Origin: an uncultured Barnesiella sp.
GTDB taxonomy: Bacteria > Bacteroidota > Bacteroidia > Bacteroidales > Barnesiellaceae
NCBI GenBank assembly: GCA_944320995.1
Contig: CALUJQ010000002.1
Location: 108,543-172,542, forward strand
Direction: 5' to 3'
Length of the DNA stretch: 64,000 nucleotides
The notes below the pieces were generated by a model that was not told the DNA's origin, searched no databases, and saw nothing but the letters and a program-made list of their open reading frames with translations. How positions within the stretch are numbered: position 1 is the first letter of the stretch; each line of letters starts with the position of its first letter. The position numbers and the translations under genes were made by a program. Below, piece after piece: positions 15,167 through 58,684 of the stretch.

Positions 15167-15167
15167 G

Positions 15168-15251
15168 TACCCAGAGCCGGGATCGAACCGGCATGGAGGT
15201 TAATCCACTGGTGTTTGAGACCAGCGCGTCTACCAATTCCGCCATCTGGGC
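15168..15251 (-). tRNA. tRNA-Leu (anticodon CAA)
   Basis: The minus strand folds into an 84-base class II tRNA. The acceptor stem is GCCCAGA/TCTGGGT (one G-U pair). The D arm is GGCGGAATTGGTAGACGCGC. The anticodon arm is CTGGT-CTCAAAC-ACCAG with anticodon CAA. A variable arm and the T arm GGTTCGATCCC follow, with discriminator A. The 3' CCA is not encoded, as is usual in Bacteroidetes. It reads UUG leucine codons. Confidence 0.96.
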
Positions 15252-20776: not shown

Positions 20777-20792
20777 TGTTTCACGTGAAACA
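20777..20792. other. parS chromosome-partitioning site (ParB-binding)
   Basis: The 16-bp palindrome TGTTTCACGTGAAACA is identical to the general bacterial parS consensus bound by ParB/Spo0J. It sits immediately after the mnmG stop codon and 54 bp before apt, outside coding sequence. ParB spreading from such sites organises and segregates the origin region, so this suggests that the window is origin-proximal. Confidence 0.88.
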
Positions 20793-45537: not shown

Positions 45538-47061
45538 ATGAGATATATATCTGAAATTATTAACGTAAAACTTTATGCTTTAATTGTATTTTCAACTCTT
45601 TTTTACGGCCTTGCATTTACACTTTCCGATTTTTACGATTCTCCATTCAACGATACTTACGATTTGTTCATTCTCACATTGCAGTGGGGGGTCGTTGTCG
45701 CAGCCACTTTTGGATTTTTATACCTGATTATCCTCAATAAATACATATTTGCCATTGTCTTTCCTCTCCTTACAGTCTCTTGCAGTATCCTTGCTTATAT
45801 GAGATACGCTCTGCAAATATCGTTGACTCCCATGCTTATGGACTTAGCATTTGTCAACGATGCCCGAACATGGATGGAAAACTTTAATTTTCAACTTTTG
45901 GGGTGGATAATTACAGCCTTGACCGTATCGATTGTTTGTGTCTATTATCGTTGTAAATACATTACCGTCAAATATCCGTTTATACATGCAATTATTGCTA
46001 TATCTATCATTATTCTTACCAACAGTTGGTCTTTTCGGAGACCGGTTTCACAACGCATTCCCTACGTCATTTATTACAGTACAAAGGAGTTTATAAACAG
46101 TCGAAACATTGTTAAAGAAAAAAGAAATACTTTTGTAAAAAACGATGCCTCTACAAAAACCGATTCTCTTACTGTCATTCTCGTCTTGGGAGAATCTTTA
46201 CGTGCCGACCATTTACAACTGAATGGCTACGAAAGGAATACGACACCTTTACTTTCAAATGACTCAAATATTATTTCATACCCCAATATCTACACTCAAC
46301 CTTATTATACACATACGAGCATACCTCATTTACTCACTCGAGCCGACAGTATTTCGCCCGACAGAGCTTACGAAGAGGAATCATTTATTTCGCTTTTCAA
46401 GCAAGCGGGGTATAAAACCTACTGGATAGCCAATCAAGAATCTGTCTCGACCTATGTTTATTTCATGAATGAATGTGACACTCTCATCTATGTAAACGGA
46501 GGTAAATCACTCTATATTTTTGACAAATGGTTAGACAGCGATCTTTTACCCGATTATAAACTGTCAATTAACGGTAATCATGCCAAAACCCTCACCATAC
46601 TGCATACCATAGGATCACACTGGTGGTATAATGCCCATTATCCCGATTCTTTTGAAATCTTCAAACCTGTCATCAAAAGTCGTGTCGTAAAATCAAACAC
46701 TCGTGAAGAAATGATCAATTCCTACGACAACACTGTCATATACACCGACTTTATCATAAATCAACTTACTTGTGAGTTAAAAAACAGACCTGCTATTCTG
46801 TTCTACATATCCGACCATGGAGAATCTTTGGGTGAAGAAGGCTATTATTTACATGGAGAAGATCGCCCCGAATTACATAATCCGGCTTTCCTTATCTGGT
46901 ATTCCGACTCATATCGAGAAAAATTTCCACAGCATGTACAACAACTTATACGAAACAAAAACAACCGTTATCTGACAGACTTTCTATTTCATACCATTCT
47001 CGATGCTGCCAACATAGAATCTTCTTATAAAAATAAACAATTAAGCCTCATCAATCTATAA
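45538..47061 (+). CDS. Lipid A/LPS phosphoethanolamine transferase-like sulfatase-fold protein
   Basis: Inner-membrane enzyme of the EptA/CptA type, predicted to add phosphoethanolamine to lipid A or LPS core. The 507 residues comprise five N-terminal membrane spans (to about residue 165) and a periplasmic alkaline-phosphatase-like domain. That domain starts with VILVLGESLRADHLQLNGYERNTTPLL (metal Glu), continues with the presumed nucleophile Thr in YYTHTSIPHLL, and has the C-terminal metal ligands in YISDHGESLGEEG and HGEDRPELHNPAF. It sits just before an acyltransferase gene (4-bp gap); together they look like an envelope-decoration pair. The exact acceptor is unknown. Confidence 0.85.
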   Translation: MRYISEIINVKLYALIVFSTLFYGLAFTLSDFYDSPFNDTYDLFILTLQWGVVVAATFGFLYLIILNKYIFAIVFPLLTVSCSILAYMRYALQISLTPMLMDLAFVNDARTWMENFNFQLLGWIITALTVSIVCVYYRCKYITVKYPFIHAIIAISIIILTNSWSFRRPVSQRIPYVIYYSTKEFINSRNIVKEKRNTFVKNDASTKTDSLTVILVLGESLRADHLQLNGYERNTTPLLSNDSNIISYPNIYTQPYYTHTSIPHLLTRADSISPDRAYEEESFISLFKQAGYKTYWIANQESVSTYVYFMNECDTLIYVNGGKSLYIFDKWLDSDLLPDYKLSINGNHAKTLTILHTIGSHWWYNAHYPDSFEIFKPVIKSRVVKSNTREEMINSYDNTVIYTDFIINQLTCELKNRPAILFYISDHGESLGEEGYYLHGEDRPELHNPAFLIWYSDSYREKFPQHVQQLIRNKNNRYLTDFLFHTILDAANIESSYKNKQLSLINL

Positions 47062-51820: not shown

Positions 51821-52810
51821 TCAAATTCCCAGTGAAGCCGATATATCGAGCATGCGTTGTATGGGTTTGATAGCTTTTTCGGCTATCTTTTCATCGACTT
51901 TTATTTCGGGTAATTCATATTTGAGTGTATTATACAATTTTTTCAAAGTATTCAATCGCATAAAATTACATTCATTGCAAGCACAAGTACTGTCATTGGG
52001 AGGTGCTGGAATAAATTCTTTATCGGGATTGATCTTTTTCATTTCATGCAATATCCCCGACTCGGTAGCTACGATAAAACATTTACATTCCGATTGTGTG
52101 GAAAAACGCAACAGAGCTGCCGTAGAACCCACTTTGTCGGCAATCAGCAATATATCTCTTTTACACTCGGGGTGAGCCAATACCAATGCATCGGGATATT
52201 GTTTTTTTAATTCCACTATCTTTTCCAACGAAAATTGTGAGTGCACATGACAAACTCCGTCCCATAGCAACATATTACGACCCGTAATGCTATTGATATA
52301 GTTTCCTAAATTTTTGTCGGGCCCGAAAATAATCTTTTCGTCAACAGGAAAACTCTCTACAATTTGGCGAGCATTAGACGATGTAACCACTACATCGGTA
52401 TGCGCCTTTACAGCTGCCGATGTATTCACATACGATATGACTTTATATCCGGGGTGCTTTTTCACGAATTCGGCAAAAGTATCGGCCGGACAACTGTCGG
52501 CCAAAGAACAACCGGCATTGAGGTCGGGAATCAACACTTTTTTGTCGGAACAGATGATCTTTGCCGTTTCGCCCATGAAATGAACACCGCAAAGCACCAA
52601 TATCGAAGCATCGGTCTTGGCAGCCCATTGGGCCAAAGCCAATGAATCGCCCACATAATCGGCAATGTCTTGTATCTCTCCCGACTGGTAATAGTGAGCG
52701 AGAATAACGGCATTTTTCTCTCGTTTCATCTTTTCTATTTCCGAGACGATATCTATGCCCTCCGGAACAGGCATGTCCACATAACCTTTCGAGATATTTA
52801 CATCGAACAT
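51821..52810 (-). CDS. nadA: Quinolinate synthase A
   Basis: 4Fe-4S enzyme that condenses iminoaspartate with dihydroxyacetone phosphate to quinolinate in NAD synthesis. The 329-residue protein shows ILAHYYQSGEIQDIADYVGDSL, CGVHFMGETAKIICSDKKVL, PDLNAGCSLADSC and CVCHVHSQF-like VCHVHSQFSLEKI. It also has AHPECKRDILLIAD and CACNECNFM, which provides a cluster Cys. nadB is elsewhere in the window (29073-30656), so the two are split although they form one pathway. It is the first gene left of the proposed origin. Confidence 0.96.
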   Translation of the reverse strand: MFDVNISKGYVDMPVPEGIDIVSEIEKMKREKNAVILAHYYQSGEIQDIADYVGDSLALAQWAAKTDASILVLCGVHFMGETAKIICSDKKVLIPDLNAGCSLADSCPADTFAEFVKKHPGYKVISYVNTSAAVKAHTDVVVTSSNARQIVESFPVDEKIIFGPDKNLGNYINSITGRNMLLWDGVCHVHSQFSLEKIVELKKQYPDALVLAHPECKRDILLIADKVGSTAALLRFSTQSECKCFIVATESGILHEMKKINPDKEFIPAPPNDSTCACNECNFMRLNTLKKLYNTLKYELPEIKVDEKIAEKAIKPIQRMLDISASLGI

Positions 52811-53327
52811 ATATATATTCTTTTTATTTTTAATTTTTAAAATCTTTATTGTTGATGATAATAGCCTGTTGAAAGCAGTGATAACTTTTCATTAAAAGAT
52901 TTGCTTTTTTTGTTGTCAAACTTTTATTTGGCTTTATCAATATCTTGTCAACGATTTTTTCTTTTTATAATGAGTCTTTTACGGGCTTTATCAACGTTCT
53001 GTTTACAAACTGCAAAGTTAATAACTTTATTCTATTTGTGTGATTGATAAATAGATATTTTAGGTGGATATGTCAACTAAAAACTCTCTGTATTATTATT
53101 TGTTTTTTTCGCATGAAACAGTGTATAAAAATTAATTTCAAAAATCAAAATTTAGAGTAATTTTTTATGATACTATTTTATAACGCTTTATAAACACATA
53201 ATAACAGCTTATACACAATTCTTATTTTCTAATGTATATTTATTGTTTTTGAAATAGCATTTGTATATAACTTTGCAGTAGATTCACTTTGTATTATCTT
53301 TGTTCATGCTTGTAATAAGTATTGTTT
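52811..53327. other. AT-rich intergenic stretch, left part of the proposed origin region
   Basis: This 517-bp region has no credible gene. It lies between divergent nadA and a SpoU methyltransferase. It contains an exact DnaA-box-like 9-mer TTATACACA (53209-53217), one with a single mismatch (53120-53128, minus strand TTATACACT), a TATAAAC copy (53189-53195), and the SpoU promoter near the right end. Strand skew is near zero here, changing from C-rich to G-rich. Confidence 0.5.
53272..53302 (+). promoter_or_regulatory. Promoter of the SpoU methyltransferase gene
   Basis: TTTG (53272-53275), exactly 19 bases, then TATCTTTG (53295-53302), a full match to the Bacteroidetes consensus, 25 bases before the ATG. 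Confidence 0.8.
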
Positions 53328-53858
53328 ATGAGAAAAAAGAGCATACTCGATTTGAATAGAATTTCGCAAGAGGAATTCAAGCATGTAGATAAAATACCTT
53401 TGATTGTTGTTTTGGATAATGTACGTAGTCTTAATAATATAGGTTCGGTATTTCGTACTTCCGACGCATTCAGGGTAAAATGCATATATTTGTGTGGAAT
53501 CACTGCTACCCCTCCTCATACCGATATTCATAAAACTGCTTTGGGCGCCGAAGATAGTGTCGATTGGATTTATGAGCAAGATACTTGTATCGTTGTTGAT
53601 AAGTTGTTAAGTAGGGGATATGAAGTTTATGCTATCGAACAGGTAGAAGATAGCATAGGTCTGACTAATATAAAGTTGGATAAAAATAAAAAGTATGCGG
53701 TCATATTTGGAAACGAAGTGAAAGGAGTACAACAATCGGTTGTTGATAAATGTACAGGCAGCATAGAAATACCTCAATTCGGTACTAAACATTCATTGAA
53801 CGTTTCGGTAACGGCCGGGCTGGTCATTTGGGATTTCTTCAAACAATTGGGATTATAA
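53328..53858 (+). CDS. TrmH/SpoU-family RNA 2'-O-ribose methyltransferase
   Basis: SPOUT-fold methyltransferase of 176 residues that probably modifies tRNA or rRNA ribose. Motif 1 is LIVVLDNVRSLNNIGSVFRTSDAF, with the Asn/Arg of the SpoU signature. Motif 2 is VIFGNEVKGVQQSVVD and motif 3 IEIPQFGTKHSLNVSVTAGLVIW. No N-terminal L30e-like substrate domain is present, so it is the short form. The ATG at 53328 is preferred over a TTG at 53322. Its last bases overlap the end of the convergent DUF4294 gene by 6 bp. Confidence 0.92.
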   Translation: MRKKSILDLNRISQEEFKHVDKIPLIVVLDNVRSLNNIGSVFRTSDAFRVKCIYLCGITATPPHTDIHKTALGAEDSVDWIYEQDTCIVVDKLLSRGYEVYAIEQVEDSIGLTNIKLDKNKKYAVIFGNEVKGVQQSVVDKCTGSIEIPQFGTKHSLNVSVTAGLVIWDFFKQLGL

Positions 53859-54455
53859 CGATCCTTGTTCTACCAATATACATATTCGTTCGATAGTTTT
53901 ATCCTCTCCATGGGGATCCCAATCGGTTTTTAAAGAAGCTCCGAACATTTTTCCGAAAAATTGCCAGAAATTGGCTCTGAAACTACCCAAAAATGCTTTT
54001 ATCAAATCGTATGAAGATTGATTACATTCTCTATTGATCAGTTTAATAAGCATCTTTCCCTGAGATAGTGTAAATTTTTTCAATACAGGTTTATATTGTT
54101 GAAACACCTCTTTTTCCATTTTTTTCATGTGTTCGGCCCGGGCTTCATCATCGGGTAGAGTCTCCAAATATTCATACGTTTCTATAAAAATAGCATAAAT
54201 GAGTTTGGCATACGGCAGTGTCTTTTTTACATCGCGAACCGTTTTCCAATAAAATTTTTCTTCTTTTTTGTTTTTGAATTTTTCGGGGGGAAAAACATAA
54301 AAAGTGCGTAATTCAACCAAAGGAACTGTATCATTATCGATTACCACCCAATAAAAATGTTTATAGGCCGGGTGTTCTTCCTTGATTACCTGTGAACGGA
54401 GGCAGGGAATTGACAGAAAGAAAAAAAGGAGCAATATGGACAGTTCTTTTTTCAT
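53853..54455 (-). CDS. DUF4294 family exported protein
   Basis: Bacteroidetes protein of 200 residues of unknown function. It has a signal peptide (MKKELSILLLFFFLSIPCLRSQ) and a family core: VVIDNDTVPLVELRTFYVFPP, FYWKTVRDVKKTLPYAKLIY and LIKLINRECNQSSYDLIKAF. The C-terminal FRANFWQFFGKMFGASLKTDWDP is also conserved. It is probably periplasmic. An ATG at 54455 is used; a TAnnTTTG element lies immediately upstream, so the mRNA may be nearly leaderless. It is the gene directly left of the DnaA-box cluster. Confidence 0.87.
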   Translation of the reverse strand: MKKELSILLLFFFLSIPCLRSQVIKEEHPAYKHFYWVVIDNDTVPLVELRTFYVFPPEKFKNKKEEKFYWKTVRDVKKTLPYAKLIYAIFIETYEYLETLPDDEARAEHMKKMEKEVFQQYKPVLKKFTLSQGKMLIKLINRECNQSSYDLIKAFLGSFRANFWQFFGKMFGASLKTDWDPHGEDKTIERICILVEQGSL

Positions 54456-54461
54456 CGGGTA

Positions 54462-54469
54462 CAAATGTA
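54462..54469 (-). promoter_or_regulatory. -7 element of the DUF4294 gene
   Basis: On the minus strand TACATTTG matches TAnnTTTG and ends 6 bases before the ATG at 54455, so transcription could start at or very near the start codon. Confidence 0.45.
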
Positions 54470-54771
54470 AATCTTTCGATTTTCATAACTACTAATTTTT
54501 GCAATAATTATAATATTCACAGATGTTTATATCGTGTGTGAATAAAATGTGCATATAAGGTTTATAAGTATGTGTATATTGTTGTAAGTATTTGATTATC
54601 AATAATTAATATATTTGTTGATAAATAAAAGAAAAGGTAGTTGAAATCTCGTGAATAAGTTGTGTATAAGAGAGGAAAAGAGTAATAGAAGTATGTAAAC
54701 GATTTTGAAGTTTACAAGGTGTTTATATGTATGTAAATAAGAAATATAAAAATATGATAATCATTTATTTA

Positions 54772-54799
54772 TTAGATATAAACATTTGTTTATATCTAA
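54772..54799. repeat. Perfect 12-bp inverted repeat in the candidate origin
   Basis: TTAGATATAAAC (54772-54783) and its complement (54788-54799) flank a 4-base ATTT loop. Each arm contains one GTTTATA heptamer. It is not followed by a T run, so it does not look like a terminator. Confidence 0.8.
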
Positions 54800-54849
54800 A
54801 TAGGAGATAGATTGTCACCTAATTTATGTGTCGAATGATATATAAACTC

Positions 54850-54857
54850 TATTTTTG
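54850..54857 (+). promoter_or_regulatory. -7 element of the radical SAM gene
   Basis: TATTTTTG fits TAnnTTTG, 20 bases before the ATG at 54878. AGGAG lies at the ribosome-binding position, which is uncommon in Bacteroidetes. No clear -33 element was seen. Confidence 0.5.
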
Positions 54858-54877
54858 TAGAATAAAATATAGGAGCT

Positions 54878-55657
54878 ATGCAGACTATACTGTTTCATGA
54901 AATCATATTCGGGCCTATACACAGCCGCCGTTTAGGAATATCCTTGGGAGTAAATTTGCTCCCGACCGATGGTAAATTATGCTCATTTGATTGTGTCTAT
55001 TGTGAATGCGGATATAATGCGCAAGGGGTAGGAAAGAGTGGTTTACCTTCGGCCGATCGGGTAGAAGAGGAATTGAAAAACCGTTTGCAAACCATGCACA
55101 AAGCAGGTGAGAAACTCGATGTGATCACTTTTGCCGGAAATGGAGAGCCCACGTTGCATCCCGAATTTGAAAAAATTATAGATACGACACTCTATTTGCG
55201 GGATCATTATTATCCCGAAGCCAAGATAAGTGTATTGTCCAATGCGACTCGCATTCACGACGAATCGGTATTCAGAGCTTTGAATAGGGTGGACAACAAT
55301 ATACTCAAACTCGATTCGCTTCATTCCGGGACGGTACGGTTGATAGACAATCCCAATGATCCCCATTTCGATATAAATAGGGTGGTAGAAGATTTGAAAA
55401 GTTTCTCGGGAAATGTAATCATTCAGACTATGTTTTTGCGGGGTTGGCACAATGGAGTACGCATAGACAATACCGTGGAAGAGGAGTTACAACCGTGGTT
55501 GGAAGCTTTACAGCGTATTTCACCCTGCTCGGTAATGGTTTATACCATCGACCGTAAAACGCCCGAGGAATCGCTCGAAAAGGTATCTCGCGAGGAGTTG
55601 GAACAAATAGCTGCCCGAGTGAAAGCATTGGGAATAGAGGTATCTGTCTCAGCTTAA
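54878..55657 (+). CDS. Radical SAM protein of unknown substrate
   Basis: Radical S-adenosylmethionine enzyme of 259 residues. The 4Fe-4S motif is CSFDCVYCEC (Cx3Cx2C), preceded by FGPIHSRRLGISLGVNLLP. FAGNGEPTLHPEFEKII is the GNGEPT block seen in wyosine-related and UPF0026-type radical SAM proteins. SVLSNATRI and KLDSLHSGTV follow. The pattern is common in anaerobes but the reaction is unknown. It is the first plus-strand gene right of the proposed origin and ends in a shared terminator. Confidence 0.88.
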   Translation: MQTILFHEIIFGPIHSRRLGISLGVNLLPTDGKLCSFDCVYCECGYNAQGVGKSGLPSADRVEEELKNRLQTMHKAGEKLDVITFAGNGEPTLHPEFEKIIDTTLYLRDHYYPEAKISVLSNATRIHDESVFRALNRVDNNILKLDSLHSGTVRLIDNPNDPHFDINRVVEDLKSFSGNVIIQTMFLRGWHNGVRIDNTVEEELQPWLEALQRISPCSVMVYTIDRKTPEESLEKVSREELEQIAARVKALGIEVSVSA

Positions 55658-55735: not shown

Positions 55736-58684
55736 TTAATCTACAACTACTTTTTGACAGAGGGTCGATTGAACGTTGTAAATCTTCACTATATATATAC
55801 CTTTGTTAAGGTTTAGGTTTCTTTCGTAATGGATTTTGCCTTCCCATATCAAATTTCCGTTTATGGAATATATTTGGGCTGATGCGTTTTCGGCTACGAT
55901 GTTGAGATAACCCGGAGTACTCCATATTTTTATATTCGAATTTTCTATTTCGCCAATAGACGAACCTTCTTCAAAGGCTGCTGTAACTACCGAAGCCATT
56001 TTTATAACAAATTCACCATTGGTTATACTTACACCATTCACCCATACATTTTTTAGATAGAAACCTTCATCGGGATTTCCGGTAACGGTAACGGTGGTAT
56101 TTTTAGTTATTTTGTCGCCCGAATTAATCACTTGGTTATCGGCATTGCGTAATTCCAATGAACCGTTTTCCGAAGGTTCTATGGTGATATAAGCCACATC
56201 ACAGCCGCTACCGTCACCCGGAACCGATACTTTCCAACCTTTTTTCGTAGCGATAGAGGTTTCGCTCGTTTCGGCTTCATTGGCATTGTTGTTTCCGGCA
56301 ATGAAGAGGTTGACATTTGTAGGTGTGGTAGCACATACGGGCAAATGATAGAACAAGTCGTTGAGTTCACAAGCCGTCATGCTGTTTCCGGCACACTCGA
56401 TATAATTAAGTTTTGTGTTGTTCGAGAGGTCGATGGGATCGAGTTGGTTGTCGTCGCAGAAGAGGCGTTCGAGTTGAGTATTGGCCGAGAGATTGAGAGT
56501 CGTGAGTTTGTTGTTCGAACAAGTGAGTTTAACCAATCCGGTGTTGTTATGCACATCGAGGCTGGTCAATCCGGTGTTAGAGCATTGCAGTTCTTGCAGG
56601 TCGGCGAGCATGCTCACGTCGAGTGTGCCCAATTGCGAGTTGTTCTGTATGTCGAGCAACAACAATTTCGTGTTGTTGGTCAAGTCTATGGTCGAGAGCA
56701 AATTGTTTTTAACAACGGCCTCTTCGAGTTCGGTGTTGGCCGAAAGATCTATTGCCGACAACCCGCAGTTGTAAGCAGTAAGTGAGAAAAGTTTGAGGTT
56801 TTTCGAAAGGTCGAGCGTTCCTATTTCGTTGTAGGAGCAGTTGGCTTTTGTTAATTCGGGATTTTTCGAGAGGTCGAGAGCGGTGATACCGGTCATATAA
56901 CAATCGAGGGTAGCCAATGTGGTATTATGGGTCAGGTCGAGCGAGATCAAGTCGTTTTCAGCACAATCGAAGTAGTCGATAAAACCGTTGATACGCACGG
57001 TGGTGCCTTTGGAATTACCGTCGATTCTTGTAATCGATTTGTTATCGATAGTCATGGTTTCCAATTCGCCGTTACCCCAGTCTATTTCTACTTCGGTTTC
57101 GGGGTCAATACCGCTGATACCGAATGAAAGTGCTGTGTTACTTTCGACTTCCATAGTGATGTAATTGTTCGAAGCAATGGGAGTAAAGACTACCGACACA
57201 GTTACATTCTCGGAAGTAGCGAAAATATTGCTGTTCAGCCGTGTACCATTTACTTCGTAGTAGCGGACTTGGTATCCCTCTTTGGGAGTAGCTATTATAT
57301 AGGTGGGGACACCACTTTCCAACAGGTTGTTTTCAATGGGGTGCAATTCGTGGGAAGTAAGATTGGGCTGGGCCAGCGATATGGTTCCAAATTCCGAGGT
57401 TTGTATCATTACTTCCACGCTGTTGCACGAAACGCTACCGTCACCTGTCACATCGACTGTCCATTTCAGTTCGGAGGCAATGGAAGTATCGCTGGTTTCG
57501 GCATTGGAACCTTCGAGTAAGAGGTTGGGGTAGGAACTAGTCTCATCCAAGCCCGAAAGAGTCTGGTACATAAAGTTGAGGCTGCAAGGTGTCATGTTTG
57601 CATTGTTGCGAATATCGATGTATTTGATGCCTTGGTTGTAGTAGAAATCGAGAAATGTGAAGCGGTTGTTTTGCCCCCAGAATCTTTCGAGGTAGCTGTT
57701 TTGGCTCAGGTCGATTTCGGTGAGTTGGTTGTCGCCGCATTTGAGCGATTGCAAGCGAGGCATATCCGACACGTTCAGTTCGGTGAGTTGGTTGCCATCG
57801 CACGACAGGTTGGTGATGTTGACATTGGCCGAGAGGTCGAGACTGCTTATTTGGTTGTTGGAGCATATCAGATCCAGCAATTTGGTATTGGTAAATACAT
57901 TTAATTCGGTCAGGAAGTTATCGTTGCAATAGATCTTTTCGAGCTGTTCGTTTTTTGTCAAGTCGAGCGACTGGACATAGTTGTTCCGCACATCGAGGTG
58001 CTGCAATTTGGGTAACATGGTTACATCTATATCTATCAATGAATTACCTTCCAAATTGACATAGTATAGATTGGAACAACCCGACAGGTCGATAGCGCTC
58101 AAATCGTTGTTGTAAGCCGTAATTGACTCCAATGCACCGCCTTCGGCGGGCAATATGATGGTGGTGATGGCCCCCCGGTCATCGGGATTCGATGTATCGG
58201 TTTTGTCGTACCGACAATCGAGGCTTATCAATTTTTTGTTGTCCGAAAGGTTGATAAACATCAATTTCGGGTTATTATAACAGTTGAGTGTTTCGAGATT
58301 GGGTGCGCCCGAAATATCGAGATTAGTACGCTCTATCTCATTTTTGTAACATTCGAGTGTGGTCAATTCGGGTTCATTGACAACCGAAATCGAGGTGATA
58401 TGGGAGTCGGAGCAATCGAGCAGTTTTAAAGGAGAAAGTATGCGAATCGTGTCTCCTACTTGGGTTCCGCTTATGTTGCGATTGAAAAGGCCATCGATAG
58501 TATACTCTTTTTGTTCTCCGTTTCCCCAGTCGACAATGACTTTCTTGTCCGACGATGCGGGGGTGGGATAGAGAGTAATATCGCTACCGAGTTCCAGCGA
58601 GGTGGTGAGTTTTATCTCACCTTGCGAGGTTGAAAATCCGAGGGTAGCACACAAAGTAAATAAAAAACATGTAATTTTTTTCAT
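55736..58684 (-). CDS. Secreted leucine-rich-repeat protein with duplicated module and T9SS tail
   Basis: Predicted cell-surface protein of 982 residues. After a signal peptide (1-20) come two homologous modules, about 48-502 and 508-905. Each opens with a small beta-sandwich (VDWGNGEQKEYTI; IDWGNGELETMTI), continues with about 21-residue LRR units (LDCSNNxLTxLDLSxNTx type) and ends in a KWTVDV/GWKVSV plus VEVMIQTSEFGT/ITIEPSENGS repeat domain. The last 75 residues (IWSTPGYLNIVAENAS, GIYIVKIYNV) are a T9SS sorting domain. LRR proteins of this kind mediate adhesion or protein binding; no enzyme motif is seen. The next gene upstream is a TPR-HTH regulator on the same strand. Confidence 0.85.
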   Translation of the reverse strand: MKKITCFLFTLCATLGFSTSQGEIKLTTSLELGSDITLYPTPASSDKKVIVDWGNGEQKEYTIDGLFNRNISGTQVGDTIRILSPLKLLDCSDSHITSISVVNEPELTTLECYKNEIERTNLDISGAPNLETLNCYNNPKLMFINLSDNKKLISLDCRYDKTDTSNPDDRGAITTIILPAEGGALESITAYNNDLSAIDLSGCSNLYYVNLEGNSLIDIDVTMLPKLQHLDVRNNYVQSLDLTKNEQLEKIYCNDNFLTELNVFTNTKLLDLICSNNQISSLDLSANVNITNLSCDGNQLTELNVSDMPRLQSLKCGDNQLTEIDLSQNSYLERFWGQNNRFTFLDFYYNQGIKYIDIRNNANMTPCSLNFMYQTLSGLDETSSYPNLLLEGSNAETSDTSIASELKWTVDVTGDGSVSCNSVEVMIQTSEFGTISLAQPNLTSHELHPIENNLLESGVPTYIIATPKEGYQVRYYEVNGTRLNSNIFATSENVTVSVVFTPIASNNYITMEVESNTALSFGISGIDPETEVEIDWGNGELETMTIDNKSITRIDGNSKGTTVRINGFIDYFDCAENDLISLDLTHNTTLATLDCYMTGITALDLSKNPELTKANCSYNEIGTLDLSKNLKLFSLTAYNCGLSAIDLSANTELEEAVVKNNLLSTIDLTNNTKLLLLDIQNNSQLGTLDVSMLADLQELQCSNTGLTSLDVHNNTGLVKLTCSNNKLTTLNLSANTQLERLFCDDNQLDPIDLSNNTKLNYIECAGNSMTACELNDLFYHLPVCATTPTNVNLFIAGNNNANEAETSETSIATKKGWKVSVPGDGSGCDVAYITIEPSENGSLELRNADNQVINSGDKITKNTTVTVTGNPDEGFYLKNVWVNGVSITNGEFVIKMASVVTAAFEEGSSIGEIENSNIKIWSTPGYLNIVAENASAQIYSINGNLIWEGKIHYERNLNLNKGIYIVKIYNVQSTLCQKVVVD

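Follow-up and report, generated by a model that had tools for sequence, protein, structure and literature searches.

Where does replication of this chromosome begin, and is the start point the gap in which DnaA-box-like 9-mers are most crowded? The window, by which we mean the whole 64,000-nucleotide stretch analysed, forms the right-hand end of a 172.5-kb contig from an uncultured Barnesiella sp., whose draft genome comprises 2.85 Mb in 65 contigs. A preliminary description had nominated a gap next to a radical SAM gene as the best oriC candidate here. That choice found the right locus and apparently a real part of it, but the likely start point and a conserved, likely unwinding element lie in a second gap to the left. 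We are close to certain that the locus is the chromosomal oriC: skew on its own contig, a closed congener, parS in seven of nine genus genomes and conserved arrays all speak for it, and only the exact place had to be revised.

Gene order and relatives

From left to right, the locus comprises leuS (minus), nadA (minus), gap1, a TrmH-like gene (plus), a DUF4294 gene (minus), gap2 and a radical SAM gene (plus). We use gap2 for the gap of the preliminary description and gap1 for the nadA/TrmH-like intergenic region.

51821..52810, minus strand: nadA (quinolinate synthase), left neighbour of gap1
52811..53321: gap1, nadA/TrmH-like intergenic region, likely core half of oriC, found in 9/9 genus genomes
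53322..53858, plus strand: TrmH/SpoU-type RNA methyltransferase, spacer gene between gap1 and gap2
53853..54464, minus strand: DUF4294 protein, spacer gene between gap1 and gap2
54465..54877: gap2, DnaA-box array, likely second half of oriC
54878..55657, plus strand: radical SAM protein, right neighbour of gap2

The close named relatives of the window are Barnesiella, with DUF4294 protein identities of 85-89% in loci L034-L039, and all genus counts out of nine include the window's own genome. One locus, from Coprobacter sp. HAN010 (L045), carries the TrmH-like spacer gene on the opposite strand compared with the other loci, which may reflect a local inversion or an assembly fault. A scan of a viral collection found no relative of the radical SAM protein. 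Elsewhere in the window, 45538-47061 (plus) encodes a lipid A phosphoethanolamine transferase family protein that scores under the curated cut-off of every model listed, and 55736-58684 (minus) encodes a leucine-rich-repeat protein with a type IX secretion sorting-domain match (24.3 versus a cut-off of 23 bits).

An RNA or tRNA explanation of the locus was rejected, the sole match at gathering scores in the window being a tRNA-Leu at 15167-15251. Sigma-70-like promoter sites between 52700 and 55000 gave no signal (12 versus 12.2 in shuffles), and one terminator-like site was found in the same interval, versus 0.9 in shuffles.

A dense, mostly unidirectional DnaA-box array in gap2

Gap2 is AT-rich and without listed genes, as had been described, and it holds the densest DnaA-box cluster of the 172.5-kb contig, with three exact boxes and nine at no more than one mismatch in 300 bp (counting TTATNCACA and TTATCAACA). 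It thus offers the DnaA-box cluster in a gene-free region that is expected of an oriC.

54537..54545, minus strand: exact DnaA box TTATTCACA, exact in 3/9 genus genomes
54616..54624, minus strand: DnaA box TTATCAACA, exact in 7/9 genus genomes, one mismatch by the rule of the preliminary description
54661..54669, minus strand: exact DnaA box TTATACACA, exact in 4/9 genus genomes
54524..54794, minus strand: nine same-direction TGTNNATA sites (54524, 54537, 54548, 54571, 54616, 54661, 54720, 54732, 54787)
54772..54799: palindrome, 13-bp arms; the mirrored box-like pair inside it is kept in 7/9 genus genomes

The two exact TTATNCACA 9-mers originally singled out (54537-54545 and 54661-54669, both minus strand) are present as described. 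The four one-mismatch copies reported with them are an undercount, with six in gap2 (54513, 54548, 54571, 54616, 54650 and 54732), five of these within about 160 bp. Conservation of the singled-out pair is partial, each being exact only in the minority of genus genomes listed above, and the better-kept box is TTATCAACA at 54616. Eight sites in gap2 lie within one mismatch of TTATNCACA versus a mean of 1.4, and none of 2000 dinucleotide-model sequences reached eight. With the relaxed core TGTNNATA, 11 sites were found in both directions versus 1.3 expected; the two opposite-direction sites, at 54514 and 54777, form mirrored pairs with the first and last of the nine.

All nine genus genomes carry the array in gap2, each with two to four exact boxes and four to nine same-direction sites, many of them at closely similar offsets. 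Spacing of the sites in the window follows a period of 11.4 bp (p = 0.0035 versus sites placed at random there), which is the best period both for the window alone and for seven loci pooled. Helical phasing is not supported, since the 10.5 bp of the B-DNA turn yields no signal (-0.12 in the pooled test). The inverted repeat noted earlier is also present, with perfect 13-bp arms at 54772-54784 and 54787-54799; its core is a mirrored pair, TATNNACA/TGTNNATA, 10-11 bp apart, and the full arms are not conserved in the genus alignment. Mirrored box-like pairs, 10 bp apart, bound the array at both ends, at 54514-54531 (kept in four of nine genus genomes) and 54777-54794 (kept in seven).

GC skew, parS and the position of dnaA

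On the window's own contig, all 20 of the 8-kb bins before base 160,001 are negative in skew and both bins after it are positive. The skew change invoked for gap2 is real, and its cumulative minimum falls at window position 52844, in gap1, 1.6 kb to the left of gap2. On the way from this minimum to gap2 the cumulative skew climbs no more than 47 counts; taken by itself, skew therefore points to gap1 but leaves gap2 as a candidate. In G159, a closed chromosome of the same genus (3.08 Mb), skew is below zero in ten consecutive 15-kb samples (0.31-1.72 Mb) and above zero in the remaining ten, and all 20 fit a single origin in the gap1 region. Within a contiguous 130-kb stretch of G159 the minimum lies at 1,836,657, which is 33 bp into gap1 and the same offset as in the window; among its 26 5-kb bins, two of the 12 before the switch are positive and two of the 14 after it slightly negative. 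The cumulative GC-skew minimum expected of an oriC thus sits in gap1 and not in gap2, both in our draft contig taken alone and in the closed G159.

The window contains a parS site, as previously stated:

20777..20792: parS TGTTTCACGTGAAACA, sole perfect site in the assembly

Seven of the nine genus genomes have a single perfect parS, in all seven on the contig of gap1 and 20-39 kb from it; the other two lack a perfect site.

The preliminary description was also right that no dnaA lies nearby, as the gene sits on another contig of this genome. The encoded protein bears KKDHATVLHA, which we take to be a usual-looking DnaA DNA-binding signature. As an origin, the dnaA locus itself was rejected: the 30 kb around the gene on contig C3 contain one exact box and no negative-to-positive switch. 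The G159 record starts at dnaA (G159:C1:690-1175), and its gap1 lies at 1836624-1836922, 1.24 Mb away.

It could be argued that our locus is no origin at all, and that its switch is a gene-strand or rearrangement effect with the origin elsewhere, for example at dnaA, where the closed record begins; some relatives are also without a skew switch at gap1. We consider this highly improbable given the agreement of all 20 G159 samples, the near absence of boxes and lack of a switch around our own dnaA, and the parS site near gap1.

For a wider comparison, we took the best 80 of 438 loci found via DUF4294 alignment; 40 of these have a nadA/TrmH gap and, together with the window, yield 41 gap1 sequences. 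Of the 34 loci long enough for the test, 18 have their skew minimum inside gap1 and 27 show the expected signs, the remaining seven of 41 being too short. Parabacteroides bouchesdurhonensis (G150:C2) was set aside as a second complete-chromosome support: its skew samples flip between 0.96 and 1.14 Mb, 0.17-0.34 Mb from gap1 at 1.305 Mb, and the result, ambiguous and partly masked, was counted as evidence against. Rearrangement or scaffold order within 0.96-1.33 Mb could explain the displaced flip.

A conserved 75-bp element in gap1

At the skew minimum, gap1 reads from left to right as an AT-rich stretch, a trio-like repeat and two adjacent DnaA-box-like 9-mers.

52811..52850: AT-rich stretch with 2 G+C among its 40 positions, likely the DNA unwinding element
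52851..52925, plus strand: 75-bp element (alignment A3, model R1), conserved across Bacteroidales
52854..52864, plus strand: GATGATAATAG, DnaA-trio-like repeat, invariant in 9/9 genus genomes; 52854-52862 reads as three NAN trios
52867..52884, minus strand: two adjacent DnaA-box-like 9-mers, TGTTGAAAG and CAGTGATAA in plus reading, the boxes being read on minus
53011..53038: 28-bp block TGCAAAGTTAATAACTTTATTCTATTTG, invariant in seven aligned Barnesiella-type loci
53209..53217, plus strand: exact DnaA box TTATACACA in gap1

The AT-rich stretch, like parts of gap2, belongs to the lowest-GC 50-mers found on the contig. A 21-column motif at the start of the element occurs with at most two mismatches in 27 of the 41 gap1 sequences versus 0.28 in shuffles, having been derived from the same 41 sequences in which it was counted. 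The element could be aligned in 34 of the 41, nearly ungapped, with seven poor matches omitted and border cases decided by eye (L058 out, with three mismatches; L054 and L111 in, with four). Its consensus is GATGATGATAATAG-nC-TGTTGAAAn-nGTTnATA ... TTTGC ... GTTATTAA.

Basal unwinding systems are described, in the text available, as a DnaA box, a spacer of no more than 16 nt and at least three 3'-NAN-5' trios (PMC8287927). The window contains such an arrangement, with a two-mismatch box, a 4-nt spacer and three trios. The same rule finds a match in 26 of the 34 aligned elements versus 8% of shuffles, a comparison that is partly circular: the motif used to select the rows itself includes the repeat, and a match was accepted wherever it fell in the first 45 bp (in L036-L039 the placement is off the repeat). 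Taken together, these features make gap1 very probably the unwinding half of the origin, as far as can be judged from sequence.

Further into gap1, the 28-bp block carries TAACTTTGC on the minus strand and is a candidate nadA promoter or origin part. Presumably TAnnTTTG is a -7 motif, by which the block would possibly be the nadA promoter. The sequence GCAAAGTTA occurs in 18 of the 41 gap1 sequences.

The element across the order

We built R1, a sequence-only model of the 75-bp element, and ran it on 198 genomes of the order, our own included, with stricter filters and 24 first-look candidates scored per genome; its E-values are rough. Matches at E <= 0.01 were found in 92 of the 198 genomes and at E <= 1e-5 in 40, with one such match in each of the 40; no match at E <= 0.01 was found in the other 106. 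The best 30 R1 loci include at least five training genomes (the window's own and four others). In 27 of these 30 the element is flanked by nadA, and in three (L212, from the closed genome G133, L214 and L228) it persists without nadA within 1.5 kb. The idea that the element is a mere nadA promoter was rejected on the strength of these three loci and of its place among DnaA boxes in G133.

In G133, neither nadA nor TrmH lies within 1.5 kb of the element. Of the 13 exact boxes in a 100-kb stretch, seven fall no more than 0.3 kb from it, and skew reaches its local minimum 1.8 kb away; no perfect parS was found in the 100 kb examined. Its genome-wide samples are noisy, with six of nine to the left of the element negative and seven of eight from the element to 3.2 Mb positive. 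Because the boxes of G133 adjoin the element, an origin in two halves is not universal.

Ten further genomes from eight other families were picked from the top 30 R1 loci by contig room, and no training row was recognised among them. Skew to the left of the element is negative in nine and 0.000 in one, and to the right it is positive in all ten (down to 0.002). The skew minimum lies no more than 0.52 kb from the element in five of the ten and 4.2-16 kb off in the other five. Exact boxes number 16 in 15 kb near the element versus 37 in 330 kb elsewhere.

These results bear directly on the original proposal, in which gap2 alone would be the origin and gap1 merely a nadA/TrmH promoter region. Gap2 is AT-rich and more crowded with DnaA boxes than any other part of the contig, but the skew minimum lies in gap1 in both the window (by a small margin) and the closed congener, the gap1 element is kept in three of 30 loci with no nadA within 1.5 kb and sits among DnaA boxes in G133, and genus matches to gap2 are shorter than those to gap1 in seven of eight relatives. 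We therefore regard an origin confined to gap2 as unlikely in the extreme, if slightly less so than the absence of any origin here.

DnaA boxes in gap1 and gap2 of relatives

We next compared exact boxes (TTATNCACA plus TTATCAACA) between gap1, gap2 (set to the 420 bp counted from the start of DUF4294) and other intergenic sequence, the last being stretches of at least 60 bp in which neither strand has an ATG frame of 100 codons. In seven Barnesiella-type loci, gap2 contains 20 boxes in 2,933 bp, gap1 seven in 3,510 bp and other intergenic sequence none in 5,962 bp. The seven in gap1 are one per locus versus 0.40 expected from shuffles over all seven; for the single box in the window's own gap1, 7% of shuffles reach as many. 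In seven relatives with an adjacent radical SAM gene, the counts are 11 in 2,940 bp of gap2, seven in 2,482 bp of gap1 (five loci) and three in 10,473 bp elsewhere, and in 29 other loci they are 13 in 11,817 bp, 45 in 18,444 bp and five in 31,353 bp, respectively. Shuffle means for gap2 are 0.71 (seven Barnesiella-type loci), 0.44 (nine radical-SAM-adjacent) and 0.96 (28 others). Both gaps are thus enriched in boxes, and for gap2 the enrichment is strongest in Barnesiella and the genomes closest to it. Loci beyond the radical-SAM-adjacent group show only a weak signal in gap2, with 13 exact boxes in 28 loci and none in 17 of them; in 35 loci without a nadA/TrmH gap, gap2 has four boxes versus 0.62 expected.

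This distribution leaves some room for the main rival reading, in which gap1 alone is the origin and gap2 a separate cluster that titrates DnaA or controls the divergent DUF4294 and radical SAM genes between which it lies. The skew minimum and the order-wide element are both in gap1, boxes in the 29 more distant loci are mostly there (45 versus 13), and in G133 they adjoin the element. Within the genus, however, gap2 is the denser cluster, and in G060 the exact boxes nearest the element are at +1749, +1783 and +1863, which is the position of gap2. In two Barnesiella assemblies (L034 and L038), the radical SAM gene lies about 4.6 kb from the array, which is still beside DUF4294; the array is therefore not simply the control region of the radical SAM gene. 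We consider an origin in gap1 alone possible but doubtful.

A probable two-part origin

Sequence analysis shows a switch in skew, conservation of both the element and the array, a lone perfect parS in the vicinity and a dnaA that is far away; DnaA binding, looping, unwinding and initiation are inferred from these. Bipartite origins are described, in the accessible text of PMC4285127, as two subregions that each have a DnaA-box cluster, one of them with a DNA unwinding element (DUE). They are expected to have a spacer gene and to total up to about 2000 bp; here 52811-54877 measures 2067 bp and the spacer is the TrmH-like/DUF4294 pair, not the usual dnaA. Judged by its sequence, the locus is compatible with a bipartite origin, 2,067 bp long and with an uncommon spacer. 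We think it probable that gap2 is a working half of such an origin. With slightly less assurance, we favour a division of roles in which gap2 is the DnaA-loading half and gap1 the half with the skew minimum and the predicted unwinding element, with the TrmH-like/DUF4294 pair between them.

In such an origin, the regularly spaced and mostly same-direction sites of gap2 would be loaded with DnaA, as would the box pair at 52867-52884. Looping out of the 1.1-kb gene pair could then bring gap2-bound DnaA to gap1, where the protein would extend from the box pair into the trio-like repeat at 52854-52864. The AT-rich stretch at 52811-52850 would open as a result, and two forks would presumably start at the opened stretch. 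For the order as a whole, we lean towards the view that Bacteroidales replication starts at a conserved 75-bp core unlinked from dnaA, and that in Barnesiella/Coprobacter-type genomes the origin is split by a non-dnaA spacer, with the array 1.6 kb away.

In the Bacteroidales genomes examined, which belong to an order of major gut bacteria, the position of dnaA is no guide to the origin. Being searchable by sequence, the core element makes oriC testable in part of the order, puts right genome numbering that begins at dnaA and would aid growth-rate estimates that rely on origin position. Why some origins are bipartite is given as unknown in the available text of PMC4285127, and a split origin without a dnaA spacer, if true, would help to test the reason.

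Comparison with known systems

A literature search of titles and abstract openings, covering few subscription papers, turned up no paper that seemed to report an origin in two parts for Bacteroidales. The predicted oriC of Prevotella intermedia OMA14 (Ori-Finder/DoriC) resembles ours in combining a skew transition and DnaA boxes with a dnaA that is not near, but the accessible part of that report describes no two-part structure or conserved core element (PMC4755523).

Structural parallels also come from other phyla. Helicobacter pylori and other Epsilonproteobacteria have, according to the sections available, a bipartite oriC1-dnaA-oriC2 with unwinding in one cluster (PMC5043019). As in H. pylori, two box-bearing regions here, of which gap2 is a clear cluster, flank a spacer and one of them would unwind, as predicted for gap1; unlike in H. 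pylori, the spacer is the TrmH-like/DUF4294 pair and dnaA is far away. The sites of gap2 point mostly in one direction, an arrangement that the same text reports for only some epsilonproteobacterial sub-origins (PMC5043019). Gap1, in turn, resembles the basal unwinding system of Bacillus subtilis as outlined in the accessible text of PMC6669920 and PMC8287927, with a box pair, a short spacer, a trio-like repeat and then an AT-rich stretch. The B. subtilis oriC also has a second box cluster set off by a gene, by the parts available of PMC6669920, PMC8287927 and PMC4285127. The boxes of gap1 differ from those of B. subtilis in being degenerate (TGTTGAAAG/CAGTGATAA), and its trios fit the loose NAN rule, matching 3'-GAT-5' only in part.
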